A stretch of 45,851 bases of DNA, taken from Enterobacteriaceae bacterium. Lineage in GTDB: Bacteria > Pseudomonadota > Gammaproteobacteria > Enterobacterales > Enterobacteriaceae. The translations under genes were made by a program, and so were the position numbers. The notes beneath the pieces were generated by a model, which made no database searches, was not told the DNA's origin, and saw only the letters and a program-made list of their open reading frames with translations. Shown one piece after another: positions 30,227 to 43,831 of this stretch (position 1 is the first letter of the stretch; each line of letters begins with the position of its first letter). The stretch covers positions 1 to 45,851 of the forward strand of contig JAIRVT010000064.1 in the NCBI GenBank assembly GCA_031253755.1, in the 5' to 3' direction.

Positions 30227-31834
30227 ATGAGCCAGCAAGTCATTATTTTTGATACTACTTTGCGCGACGGCGAGCAAGCCTTACAAGCCAGTTTGAGTGT
30301 AAAAGAAAAACTGCAAATCGCTTATGCACTGGAGAGGCTGGGCGTTGATATTATTGAAGCGGGCTTCCCGGTCTCCTCGCCCGGCGATTTTACTTCAGTC
30401 CAGACCATTGCCCGCGAGATCAAAAATAGCCGTATCTGTGCATTATCCCGCTGTGTTGATAATGATATTGATGTTGCTGCTGAAGCGCTGAAAGTGGCAG
30501 AAGCCTTCCGTCTGCATATGGTGCTGGCAACGTCCGATCTGCATGTTGAACAAAAACTGAAAAAAAGTTTCGACGATATTGTTGATATGGCCGTTCGTTC
30601 CATTAAGCGGGCTCGTAATTATACCGACGACGTTGAATTTTCTTGTGAAGATGCCGGTCGTTCCAATATCGACAATCTGTGTCGCATTGTTGAACAGGCT
30701 ATCAAAGCCGGTGCAACAACCATCAATATCCCTGATACCGTTGGTTATACCACGCCTTATCAATTTGGCGGCATTATCCACACCTTATTCGAGCGCGTAC
30801 CCAATATCGATAAAGCCATTATTTCTGTCCATTGCCATGATGACTTAGGTATGTCAGTGGCGAACTCGATTACCGCTGTTCAGGCGGGAGCCCGCCAGAT
30901 TGAAGGCACGATTAACGGCTTAGGCGAGCGTGCCGGTAACTGTTCGCTGGAAGAAGTGATCATGGCTATCAAAACCCGCCAGCAGATGTTGGGGGTTCAC
31001 ACCAACATCAACCACAAAGAAATTTACCGAACCAGTCAGTTAGTCAGCCAAATTTGCAATACACCGATTCCGGCCCATAAAGCGGTTGTCGGCAGCAATG
31101 CGTTTGCTCATTCGTCAGGCATTCATCAGGATGGCGTCCTGAAAAACCGTGAAACTTACGAAATCATGACACCGGATTCTATCGGCCTGAAAGATACACA
31201 ATTGAACCTGACTTCCCGCTCTGGCCGCTCTGCGGTAAAACATCGCATGACTGAAATGGGCTATCAGGATCAAGACTATGATCTGGATGCGTTATATCAG
31301 GCTTTCTTGCGTCTGGCGGATAAGAAAGGTCAGGTATTCGATTACGATCTGGAAGCTTTGGTCTTCATCAACCAACAGCATCAGGAAGATGAATTCTACC
31401 GTCTGGATTATTTCAGCATTCAGTCGGGAACCTGTGTTGTGCCGACCGCAACGGTACGTCTAGCCTGCGGCAATGAAATCAAATCGGAAGCCGCCACCGG
31501 TAACGGAACCGTCGATGCCATCTATCATGCCATCAATCGTATTACCGGCTACCCGATTGAACTGATTTCCTATCAGTTATCCGGCAAAGGACAAGGAAAA
31601 GATGCGCTTGGGCAGGTCAGCATCATCGTTGAATGTTTTGGCCGTCGTTTTCATGGCGTTGGGTTGGATACGGATATTATTGCATCTTCCACTAAAGCGA
31701 TGATTCATGCCTTGAATAGTATCTGGCAGGCAGAGCAGGTCAAAAAAGAAAAACAACGCATACACGACAGTATGATCAAAGACACGGTGACCACCAATAC
31801 GATGGCCAGTCACACGCCACAGGAAGCGAAATAA
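30227..31834 (+). CDS. leuA: 2-isopropylmalate synthase LeuA
   Basis: Condenses acetyl-CoA with 2-ketoisovalerate, the first committed step of leucine synthesis. It has 535 residues (523 in E. coli). The N-terminal TIM barrel has [29 protein letters not shown], the metal-binding HCHDD, and [13 protein letters not shown]; the C-terminal regulatory domain (about 390-500) for leucine feedback follows. A strong AGGAG lies 8 nt upstream. A longer polar tail ([15 protein letters not shown]) explains the extra length. It is controlled by the LeuL attenuator. Confidence 0.98.
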
Positions 31835-31836
31835 TA

Positions 31837-32967
31837 ATGTCAAATCCGACTAAAAAACACATAACCGAAAAGCAACAGGCATACCATATTGCAGTATTAC
31901 CCGGTGACGGCATTGGCCCTGAAGTCATGAGGCAAGCCTATAAAGTGTTGGATGCCATCCGTCAGCGCTTTTCTATCCGCATCACAACCAGTGAATACGA
32001 TATTGGCGGCATTGCGATTGACAGACACGGCAGCCCGCTGCCTGAAGCCACCATCGCGGGTTGTGAAAAAGCCGATGCCATTCTGTTTGGTTCGGTCGGC
32101 GGCCCTAAATGGGAACATTTGCCGCCCGATAATCAACCTGAACGCGGCGCATTGTTGCCACTGCGCAAACATTTCAAGCTGTTCAGCAACCTGAGACCTG
32201 CACGGTTATATGCCGGTTTAGAAGCGTTTTGCCCGCTTCGTCATGATATCGCGGCAACCGGTTTTGATATTTTATGTGTCCGAGAGCTGACCGGCGGGAT
32301 CTATTTCGGTCAACCCAAAGGGCGGCAGGGAGAAGGAAAATATGAACGTGCTTTCGATACTGAAATCTACCACCGTTTTGAGATCGAGCGAATCGCCCGG
32401 ATTGCTTTCGAATCGGCGCGTAAACGCCGGCATAAAGTGACTTCCATTGATAAAGCGAACGTTCTGCAAAGTTCGGTTTTATGGCGTGAAGTGGTCAGCG
32501 AAATCGCGCAGGACTATCCTGATGTTGAAATCCATCATATGTATATCGACAACGCCACCATGCAGTTGATAAAAAATCCGGCGCAGTTTGATGTTCTGTT
32601 GTGCTCCAATCTTTTTGGCGATATTTTATCCGACGAATGCGCGATGATCACAGGTTCAATGGGCATGTTGCCGTCTGCGAGCCTGAACGAAAACGGCTTT
32701 GGCTTATACGAACCCGCAGGCGGTTCAGCCCCTGACATTGCCGGAAAAAACATCGCGAATCCAATCGCCCAAATTCTATCTACGGCCTTGTTGCTGCGTT
32801 ATAGCGTCGGACGTGATGATATTGCTGATGTTGTTGAAAACGCGGTCAATCATGCTCTGGAACAGGGGTATCGGACGGCAGATTTGGCGGGTAACAGTAA
32901 ATCAATCGGCACGGATGAAATGGGCGACATCATTGCCCGGTATATTACGGCAGGAACGGTGAAATAA
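31837..32967 (+). CDS. leuB: 3-isopropylmalate dehydrogenase LeuB
   Basis: NAD-dependent oxidative decarboxylase that makes 2-ketoisocaproate from 3-isopropylmalate. It has 376 residues (363 in E. coli), the extra residues being an N-terminal extension before [26 protein letters not shown], the catalytic Lys in [12 protein letters not shown], and the adenine loop [18 protein letters not shown] are present. It starts 2 nt after the leuA stop. leuC and leuD, which follow leuB in enterobacteria, are missing here; the next gene is sgrR. Confidence 0.98.
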
Positions 32968-42009: not shown

Positions 42010-42536
42010 GAGAACAACCCACCCGCAGCGACAATATTGGCCAGTTCGCCAACCGGATCTGTCGGGTAGGTTGTGCCATTTTTCAATACCGTCACCGTTT
42101 GGTTTTCGATATCAATTTCAATACTGTCGCCGGTGACCAACTGCTCACACAGGCGTTGCTGCGCCGCAACCGGCAGCAATTCACCGGTAGAAACACAGTT
42201 ACGGAAGAAAATTCGGGCATAAGACTGGGCCAACACCGCTTTCACGCCCGAAGCCCCCAACGCAGCAACCGCATGTTCACGGGAAGATCCGCAACCAAAA
42301 TTCTGCCCCGCCACCACAATCGGATACTTCGCTTTGCCTTTCTCTTCATCAATAAAAGGCAGCGATCCTTCCGGCAATCCACACATCGCCAGTGTGGCGA
42401 GTTGGGCATAACCTTCCGGCGTGGATGGATTTACTTTGATATATTCTCCGGCCAGTATCTGGTCAGTATCGATATTGTCCGCCAACACATAGACCTGACC
42501 GCGAATGATGTTGCTATTCATATTCTGTTTATTCAT
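41979..42536 (-). CDS. leuD: 3-isopropylmalate dehydratase small subunit, short type
   Basis: Small subunit of the LeuCD isomerase, or of a related hydro-lyase. It has 185 residues; the enterobacterial LeuD has about 201 and a different sequence. Motifs VLADNIDTDQILAGEYIKV, FGCGSSREHAVAAL and SYARIFFRN belong to the LeuD/aconitase swivel domain, and its compact form matches the type 2, archaeal-like small subunit. The start ATG overlaps the leuC stop (ATGA), so the two subunits are translationally coupled. The 3' end overlaps the convergent transferase gene by 31 bp. Substrate could also be another methylated malate. Confidence 0.88.
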   Translation of the reverse strand: MNKQNMNSNIIRGQVYVLADNIDTDQILAGEYIKVNPSTPEGYAQLATLAMCGLPEGSLPFIDEEKGKAKYPIVVAGQNFGCGSSREHAVAALGASGVKAVLAQSYARIFFRNCVSTGELLPVAAQQRLCEQLVTGDSIEIDIENQTVTVLKNGTTYPTDPVGELANIVAAGGLFSYARATGRII

Positions 42537-43831
42537 AAAAAAGTCTCCGGGTTGGTGATCTGACCAGTGATCGCTGCCGCCGCAACAGAATAAGGGGAAG
42601 CAAGGTAAATATTGGCGCGTTTATGCCCCATTCTGCCGACAAAATTGCGGTTCGTGGTGGAGATCACCGAGATCGGATCATTCACGCGCCCGAACGTATC
42701 CGGTGGCCCGCCACAACACGCTGCGCAACCGGATTCCGCAGACAGTTTCACGCCGGCATCGGTTAAAATCTGATAAATGGAAACGCCGTCAATCTGGGTG
42801 GTGATGGTTTTGTGGAAAACCTCTTTGGTGGCTGGCACGGCATAAGTCGGAATTTTGACCTTATGTCCTTTGATAATGCGCGCCGCTGCAATGAAATCTT
42901 CCAGTTTGCCGCCGGTACAGGAGCCGATATAAGCCTGAGAAATAGCGACATTAGCAAGGCGTTCGATGGAGACCACATTATCCGGCGAGTGTGGTTTAGC
43001 GATCTTCGGCTGCATCGCAGAAACATCAATCTCTAACACGCGGGTATAGGGTGCGTCTTCATCGGGATGGACAATCTCAAACGGCAGTTCATTGCGCGCG
43101 GCCAGATAATCGAGGGTCGCCTGATTCGGCACCATAATGCCATTCTTCGCGCCACACTCCACAACCATATTGCAAATCGTCATGCGCTCTTCAACCGACA
43201 ACTCATCAATGACATTGCCACCAAACTCGATAGCCTGATACGTTGCGCCATCCACCGTTAATTCTGCCAATACCGCCAGAATCATATCTTTTGCCAACAC
43301 ATGAGTCGGTTTCGTGCCGGTAAAGTTCACTCGTATCGTACTCGGCACTTTAAGCGGAATTTCCCCCGTGCCGATGGCATAAGCCGCATCCGTAATACCC
43401 AAACCAATGGCAAATGCGCCAAAAGCACCGGCGGTCACCGTATGGGAATCCGTCCCCAGCAACACTTCACCGGGGCGAGTGTGGCCGCCTTCTGCCAGCC
43501 CGATATGGCAAACACCTTTATAATCGGGCGTTCCGACATCGTAAAAATATTTAATATTCTGTTCAGCGGCAAACTCACGCATCACCCGAATGTTCTGATT
43601 GGCTTGTGGATCGGCGGAATAGACAAAATGGTCAGGGATCATAATAAAGCGCGTCGGATCCCAAATTTTGGCATCCTGACCGAACTCTTTTTTAAATACG
43701 CTGGCGACACCCGGCGTGCAGGGGTCGTGAGACATTAAGATATCCACTTTCGCCCAAACCACTTCACCCGGTGTGACATATTCACGTCCGCTGGCTCGTG
43801 CGAGGATTTTTTGTGTCATTGTCTGGTTCAC
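42533..43831 (-). CDS. leuC: 3-isopropylmalate dehydratase large subunit, short (type 2)
   Basis: 4Fe-4S aconitase-family subunit, 432 residues from a GTG at 43831, which has GGAGAG 4 nt upstream; an ATG at 43819 gives 428. The enterobacterial LeuC has about 466 residues and ends differently. Here the cluster ligands appear as GSCTGGKLEDF and SGCAACCGGP, followed by STTNRNFVGRMGHK and IYLASPYSVAAAAITG, the pattern of archaeal-type LeuC/HACN and dimethylmalate dehydratase-type proteins. HIGLAEGGHTRPG and GTDSHTVTAGAFGAFA give the first part of the active site. It most likely supplies the isomerase step missing from the leuAB operon. A LysR gene diverges from it. Confidence 0.9.
   Translation of the reverse strand: MNQTMTQKILARASGREYVTPGEVVWAKVDILMSHDPCTPGVASVFKKEFGQDAKIWDPTRFIMIPDHFVYSADPQANQNIRVMREFAAEQNIKYFYDVGTPDYKGVCHIGLAEGGHTRPGEVLLGTDSHTVTAGAFGAFAIGLGITDAAYAIGTGEIPLKVPSTIRVNFTGTKPTHVLAKDMILAVLAELTVDGATYQAIEFGGNVIDELSVEERMTICNMVVECGAKNGIMVPNQATLDYLAARNELPFEIVHPDEDAPYTRVLEIDVSAMQPKIAKPHSPDNVVSIERLANVAISQAYIGSCTGGKLEDFIAAARIIKGHKVKIPTYAVPATKEVFHKTITTQIDGVSIYQILTDAGVKLSAESGCAACCGGPPDTFGRVNDPISVISTTNRNFVGRMGHKRANIYLASPYSVAAAAITGQITNPETFL

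Follow-up and report, generated by a model that had tools for sequence, protein, structure and literature searches.

The enterobacterial isopropylmalate isomerase is a heterodimer of LeuC and LeuD, which are encoded with LeuA and LeuB in the leuABCD operon. The same heterodimeric family contains the isopropylmalate/citramalate isomerase of Methanocaldococcus, known from the PDB structures 4nqy and 4kp1 and, for its small subunit, 3vba. In laboratory mutants of Salmonella, supQ-newD replaces leuD, so that another small subunit takes the place of the original one. The replacement described here concerns the whole pair rather than one subunit and extends across Xenorhabdus, a genus that lives with nematodes and kills insects. 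The analysis starts from a 45,851-nucleotide stretch (the window; contig C85) of a Xenorhabdus draft genome (3.0 Mb in 107 contigs, 82.9% complete), in which leuA and leuB are separated from a type-2 isomerase pair, leuC2-leuD2. LeuC2D2 presumably shares its reaction and pathway position with enterobacterial LeuC-LeuD but belongs to another subfamily, lies at another locus and has its own LysR gene. LeuC2 is distant from the 4nqy, 4kp1 and 3vba isomerase within their common family, and the loop residues of LeuD2 differ.

A LeuCD-like pair outside leucine synthesis, HvrD-HvrE, belongs to pantaphos synthesis in Pantoea ananatis, and a phosphonate substrate is proposed for it in PMC7858074, which also reports hvr-like clusters in Xenorhabdus and Photorhabdus. 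HvrDE and LeuC2D2 are set side by side here by description, not by sequence. In table rows of a 2016 expression study (PMC4706420), a leuC fragment of X. koppenhoeferi is lowered in the nematode and has Erwinia tasmaniensis ETA_30520 as its best match (87/93), and leuC is marked present in X. n. and X. b. and absent in P. l. and P. a. (two Xenorhabdus and two Photorhabdus). These rows tabulate the odd leuC distribution in passing, with no discussion of replacement. Our literature searches, mostly of sources outside the subscription literature, yielded no paper that we recognized as describing a leuCD swap in Xenorhabdus.

The two leu loci of the window consist of the following features.

30227–31834, forward strand: leuA, 2-isopropylmalate synthase (NCBIfam PRK00915.1-1, 992 bits, cut-off 748)
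31837–32967, forward strand: leuB, 3-isopropylmalate dehydrogenase (TIGR00169, 550 bits, cut-off 353)
32968–32977, forward strand: former site of the native leuCD by comparison of 30 genomes, its residue too small to score as a leuD remnant
32978–33001, forward strand: terminator GGCCAGTAAG...CTTACTGGCT, 10 bases past the leuB stop, with a motif also found 3′ of leuD in genome G026 (z −3.0, 2/200 shuffles as stable)
33145–34806, forward strand: sgrR-like gene after the operon (open reading frame, ORF)
41979–42536, reverse strand: leuD2, type-2 isomerase small subunit, 185 aa (LEUD_arch, 118 bits, cut-off 109; NIDTDQ and GSSRE motifs)
42533–43831, reverse strand: leuC2, type-2 isomerase large subunit, 432 aa from GTG, overlapping leuD2 by 4 bases (PRK00402, 463 bits, cut-off 385; three cluster cysteines)

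An earlier note on this DNA had described leuB as followed by a hairpin and sgrR without leuC or leuD, and had placed a minus-strand leuC-leuD pair of about 432 and 185 residues near the window end. The ORFs, the LeuA and LeuB equivalog scores and the hairpin stability bear out the first description, and the ORF coordinates bear out the second. The window ORF list contains no leuC or leuD between leuB and the sgrR-like gene. The leuC2-leuD2 pair is located 9 kb from leuA-leuB on the opposite strand.

The genus search comprised 30 genomes, the window genome included. All 30 contain leuB (one flagged stop, in G022, lies at the gene end), 29 contain LeuC2, with the 28 other copies 91–95% identical to that of the window, and 29 have no leuC after leuB. 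The remaining genome, G026, lacks LeuC2 and carries leuC immediately 3′ of leuB in an intact leuABCD operon (888 bits as enterobacterial leuC). In the window genome, PF00330 matches three genes, which correspond to LeuC2 and two long aconitases (frames of 903 and 866 aa), AcnA and AcnB by length. This search revealed no enterobacterial-type leuCD in the window genome; because the genome is a draft, the absence of the native pair rests mainly on the genus-wide result. In 25 of the 29 LeuC2 genomes, the PF00330 matches are likewise two long aconitases and LeuC2, with no further heterodimeric LeuC. The earlier note had named an intact enterobacterial leuCD as an observation that would speak against replacement; none occurs in the window draft, and the one in G026 occurs in a genome that lacks the type-2 pair.

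The native leuCD genes were deleted from the operon in place, as indicated by leuD remnants and a shared terminator behind leuB. The post-leuB stretch was long enough for comparison with the end of G026 leuD in 27 of the 29 type-2 genomes (too short in G016 and G000). A leuD 3′-end remnant was detected in seven of the 29, namely G004, G005, G029, G028 and G019 (0/500 letter shuffles) and G001 and G017 (2/500), without correction for 27 tests. In G004 and G005, the remnant covers 53 aligned bases, which correspond to the interval 99 to 46 bases upstream of the leuD stop, and the last codons are also kept by eye. The G007 match (2/500) lies at another part of leuD and was not counted, and G015, which resembles G029 by eye, failed the test (120/500). 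The hairpin GCCAGTAAG..CTTACTGGC, with variants, is found 3′ of leuB in 25 of the 29 genomes and 3′ of leuD in G026. In G260 and G166, which are named Photorhabdus-like by closeness, leuD ends differently and without a terminator of the Xenorhabdus type. The remnants vary from lineage to lineage, a pattern consistent with several deletions or with a single one followed by decay.

The pairs of all 29 Xenorhabdus carriers group in one clade (support of 0.99 for DNA and 0.81 for protein) in a tree rooted on Burkholderiales. The sister in both trees, at a fork read without its support value, is a Phytobacter/Enterobacter/LSJC7/Tenebrionibacter group, whereas Erwinia is nearest by identity (79–84%); the donor is therefore only bracketed. 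The pair is under purifying selection, with ratios of nonsynonymous to synonymous divergence (dN/dS; five pairs each) of 0.016–0.028 for leuC2 and 0.024–0.038 for leuD2, values that are rough because dS is high. The incoming pair is foreign by tree and distribution, and the resident pair was lost in the same lineages, as expected of xenologous displacement. The earlier proposal of non-orthologous replacement gains support from the single type-2 clade, the remnants, the genus-wide absence of leuCD behind leuB outside G026 and the lack of a type-1 leuCD in the window genome itself.

Beyond the genus, type-1 LeuC is present in 239 of 295 genomes of the wider family (E≤1e-100). LeuC2 matches (E≤1e-50) are restricted to 12 of the 295, which comprise four Xenorhabdus, four others at 72–78% identity and four at 34–41%; relatives at 72–78% are thus limited to 4 of the 291 family genomes outside Xenorhabdus. 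A contig scan using an alignment of seven LeuC2 sequences, which reaches near relatives only, yielded 36 loci, 21 from named Xenorhabdus and 15 from Erwinia, Pantoea, Phytobacter, Enterobacter, Tenebrionibacter, an Enterobacteriaceae strain, Burkholderia, Pigmentiphaga and Aquabacterium. The nearest relatives found (68–84%) belong to Erwinia, Pantoea, Phytobacter, Enterobacter and Burkholderia. All 12 of the non-Xenorhabdus carriers tested among these 15 loci also have type-1 LeuC (61–84% identical to the G026 copy). Three Xenorhabdus tested alongside consist of two without type-1 LeuC and one with a 50% copy. No plasmid vehicle was found among 72,556 plasmid records, 37 of which matched LeuC2, all at <60% identity.

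LeuC2 passes the NCBIfam subfamily cut-offs of hacA_fam (430 vs 386 bits) and PRK00402 (463 vs 385) and falls narrowly below IPMI_arch (408.9 vs 410.15) and far below the enterobacterial leuC equivalog (196 vs 560); LEU2 (392 vs 611) also fails. LeuD2 passes only LEUD_arch and is below leuD (67 vs 116) and leud (113 vs 246). The methanogen homoaconitase equivalogs HacA_Meth and HacB_Meth fail as well (363 vs 550 and 124 vs 230). The pair had been described as following an archaeal or type-2 pattern; the subfamily scores uphold type 2, and "archaeal" fits the broad family only, given that the nearest relatives found are bacterial. The three cysteines that bind the [4Fe-4S] cluster in aconitases are kept in 42 of 42 LeuC2 sequences, and the GSSRE motif is kept in 41 of 41 LeuD2 sequences (no LeuD was read from Aquabacterium). 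The G011 LeuC2 (L095 1501–2787) reads GCAACIGGP, and the other printed sequences read GCAACCGGP or CAACCGGP. The best solved match of LeuC2 is the isopropylmalate/citramalate isomerase (4nqy and 4kp1; 338 bits over residues 1–426). In the small subunit, a loop contributes to substrate recognition, according to PMC7308503. This loop is YIKVN here, YLVYT in 3vba and YLRTT in 2pkp. A single loop type is common to Xenorhabdus and the other carriers; therefore, no loop change accompanied the swap, and the loop sequence does not reveal the substrate. Judged from sequence, leuC2D2 most likely now supply the isopropylmalate isomerase in most of Xenorhabdus, and we infer both the activity and leucine prototrophy.

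The pair is embedded in a PEBP-YrdC-LysR-leuC-leuD cassette, where YrdC belongs to the Sua5 family. All 21 named Xenorhabdus records have full-length leuC2 and leuD2; LysR is present in 20, YrdC in 20 and full PEBP in 18. None of these three partners lies near the pair in L108, the PEBP gene is incomplete in L119 and L138, and G005 lacks it. The neighbor is speB in six records and a siderophore-binding-protein gene or hemW in fifteen. A hemW site without the cassette is observed in G005, G007, G011 and G025, and speB adjoins the phosphopantetheinyl transferase gene in G026, forming an empty site. Among the 15 non-Xenorhabdus loci, LysR (at least 45% identical) is near in 14, YrdC in 12 and PEBP in 6 (none of them Erwinia). 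In L140, leuC2 is disrupted, with about a fifth of it matched. Outside Xenorhabdus, L133 (1739–10926) and L126 (5308–12190) contain the pair with LysR, YrdC, PEBP, MFS and TauD-like genes (the L126 dioxygenase by eye), and these clusters look like a small uncharacterized pathway cluster.

G026 groups with clade C of the genus, with a Shimodaira–Hasegawa-like approximate likelihood ratio test (SH-aLRT) support of 99 in the 12-gene tree and 100 in the all-marker tree. The latter combines the 12 genes with acnA and eight hemW-side genes from 10 genomes; in 7 of 10 rows its pilT piece contains stops, which probably stem from pre-start sequence and were read as X. The concatenated trees omit G009 and G024, whose contigs terminate too early. 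The type-2 clades A and B branch outside the group of G026 and clade C. This position of G026 favors an ancestor that had both enzymes, each of which was later lost in different lineages. Under vertical descent, the simplest reading would be a dual-enzyme ancestor resembling Erwinia today, two or three leuCD losses and one cassette loss.

We consider it very probable that a cassette was acquired, that a dual-enzyme phase followed, that native leuCD was then deleted and that leuC2D2 serves as the isopropylmalate isomerase. The Xenorhabdus ancestor would have gained the YrdC-LysR-leuC2-leuD2 cassette, with PEBP, from a donor related to the Erwinia, Pantoea and Enterobacter carriers, probably at a site between speB and the phosphopantetheinyl transferase gene. 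LeuC2 and LeuD2 would form a heterodimeric [4Fe-4S] enzyme converting 2- to 3-isopropylmalate. Both enzymes would have coexisted for a time, as in Erwinia now, before native leuCD was deleted behind leuB, presumably in repeated events, with leuD 3′ fragments and the original terminator left in place. One lineage, that of G026, would have kept the native pair and dropped the cassette.

Several observations weigh against this account. Both LeuC2 and LeuD2 fail the isopropylmalate isomerase equivalog cut-offs. The best solved match of LeuD2 is the homoaconitase subunit 2pkp (104 bits), followed by 3vba (89 bits), and its loop (Y-I/L-K/Q-V/I-N) is unlike both the solved isomerase and the homoaconitase. 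Most members retain PEBP and YrdC, which leaves room for an older function to persist. G025 and G028 encode a type-1-like LeuC elsewhere in the genome in addition to the type-2 pair, and 22 of the 29 genomes are without a counted remnant, including the two with too short a stretch. Finally, the approximately unbiased (AU) test does not reject placing G026 next to clade C instead of within it (p 0.19, all markers).

A single loss of leuCD in the genus ancestor, followed by regain from outside in G026, is unlikely. It requires fewer losses and suits the placement of G026 between or beside leuCD-losing genomes, and the G026 flank beside hemW is rearranged, with no match in G026 to the siderophore-binding gene found there elsewhere. 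However, G026 leuCD diverges from Photorhabdus-like G260 and G166 about as much as leuB does, although dS is saturated, and it ends in the Xenorhabdus-type terminator that those two genomes lack. G026 leuCD thus bears no sign of recent import.

Confinement of leuC2D2 to specialized metabolism with PEBP and YrdC, which would leave most Xenorhabdus leucine auxotrophs with a broken pathway, is doubtful. Such a role accords with the ordinary LeuC of all 12 tested carriers outside the genus, with the TauD-like and exporter genes of some carrier clusters and with the LeuCD homologs HvrDE in a natural-product pathway, as set out in PMC7858074. It is opposed by the retention of leuB in all 30 genomes (leuA was not counted per genome), by the loss of partners but never of leuC2D2 in the 21 named records and by the absence of the type-2 pair precisely where native leuCD is present.

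An early split of G026, before arrival of the cassette and with ancestral leuABCD kept, is quite improbable, even though one gain and one loss would entail the fewest trait changes and the speB-transferase adjacency of G026 would be an original empty site. acnA alone leaves G026 unplaced and does not oppose this history (AU p 0.42). Holding the type-2 genomes together with G026 outside is rejected by the 12 genes (AU p 0.007, 59 log-likelihood units worse) and by all markers (p 0.003, 88 units worse), values that are somewhat flattering because the group was named after the first tree was seen. The SH-aLRT supports agree with this rejection, and leuA and leuB of G026 are nearer to those of G010 of clade C than to those of G000 or G005. 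That the 82.9% complete assembly simply missed native leuCD is very unlikely, since the leuB-terminator junction lies inside the window and leuC is also missing after leuB in 28 other genomes, of which 26 have a completeness of ≥90% and a contamination of ≤5%.

For the favored sequence of cassette gain and native leuCD deletion, one conceivable but doubtful cause is that the cassette entered as a resistant stand-in, with LeuC2D2 unblocked by isopropylmalate-like antimetabolites, such as pantaphos-type phosphonates, made or met by Xenorhabdus or the donors. If so, the sensitive native pair could have been discarded in most of the genus.

The regulatory features of the two loci are as follows.

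30019–30105, forward strand: leu leader peptide MIHTVCFITNRLLSLLLIAFNVRGMLVD, 28 codons with a Leu-codon run (reading frame and sequence)
30138–30161, forward strand: attenuator-like terminator hairpin with a T run (fold of 30020–30168, z −3.85, 0/200 shuffles as stable)
43917–43938, no strand: inverted repeat ACTGTTTCTGTTATGAAACAGT in the divergent promoter region, a possible LysR box (alignment of 17 sequences, by eye)
44025–44933, forward strand: divergent LysR-family regulator gene of the cassette, a conserved partner (best model YafC, 174 bits, below its cut-off)

The new pair had been said to lie outside the leucine attenuator. The leader before leuA is present as this statement implies, and none is seen before leuC2 by eye, with no search aimed at leaders. 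A similar repeat occurs in the other aligned Xenorhabdus, and ATTGTTT..AAACAAT occurs in Erwinia and Pantoea (the same 17 sequences, by eye). leuAB would have stayed on leucine attenuation, and leuC2D2 may answer to another signal through their own LysR protein acting at this repeat.

G025, G028, G010 and G024 each contain one further LeuC-like gene at another locus, which was set apart as a separate cluster, with genes named by eye. In G028 (L236 4663–10034), a second leuB-like and leuA-like pair is divergent from leuC-leuD-like genes, adjacent to a 1971-aa nonribosomal peptide synthetase-like ORF. The G025 cluster (L237 3593–10067) consists of isopropylmalate-synthase-like, dioxygenase-like, exporter-like and leuC-leuD-like genes. 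G010 (L238 5794–8732) and G024 (L239 1179–4055) have a common cluster of synthase-like, leuC-like and leuD-like genes, in which the leuC-like gene is a single frame in G024 and split in G010.

The remaining neighbors in the window include one gene that borders the pair.

41257–42009, forward strand: 4′-phosphopantetheinyl transferase gene, overlapping leuD2 tail to tail (EntD-like, 102 bits, below cut-off 169)

Genes resembling those for cystathionine beta-synthase and gamma-lyase adjoin each other in the interval that separates the two leu loci (36727–39308; best models below cut-offs). A 178-aa ORF (45105–45641) has no NCBIfam or Pfam match, and a tandem AATAAACTAATA / AATAAACCAATA repeat (45640–45851) runs to the contig end, past LysR, where relatives have YrdC. 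In the window genome, speB, PEBP and YrdC are located at the end of another contig; the cassette is thus split by a gap in the assembly.

When a core biosynthetic enzyme has been replaced, as a rule only the end state is visible. Carriers with both enzymes, remnants of the lost genes and the reverse state of G026 make it possible to test how such a replacement runs and whether it can run in either direction. One pathway appears to be divided, with leucine attenuation for one part and a LysR gene of its own for the other, and the finding points to the enzyme that would serve as leucine isomerase in a widely studied symbiont genus.

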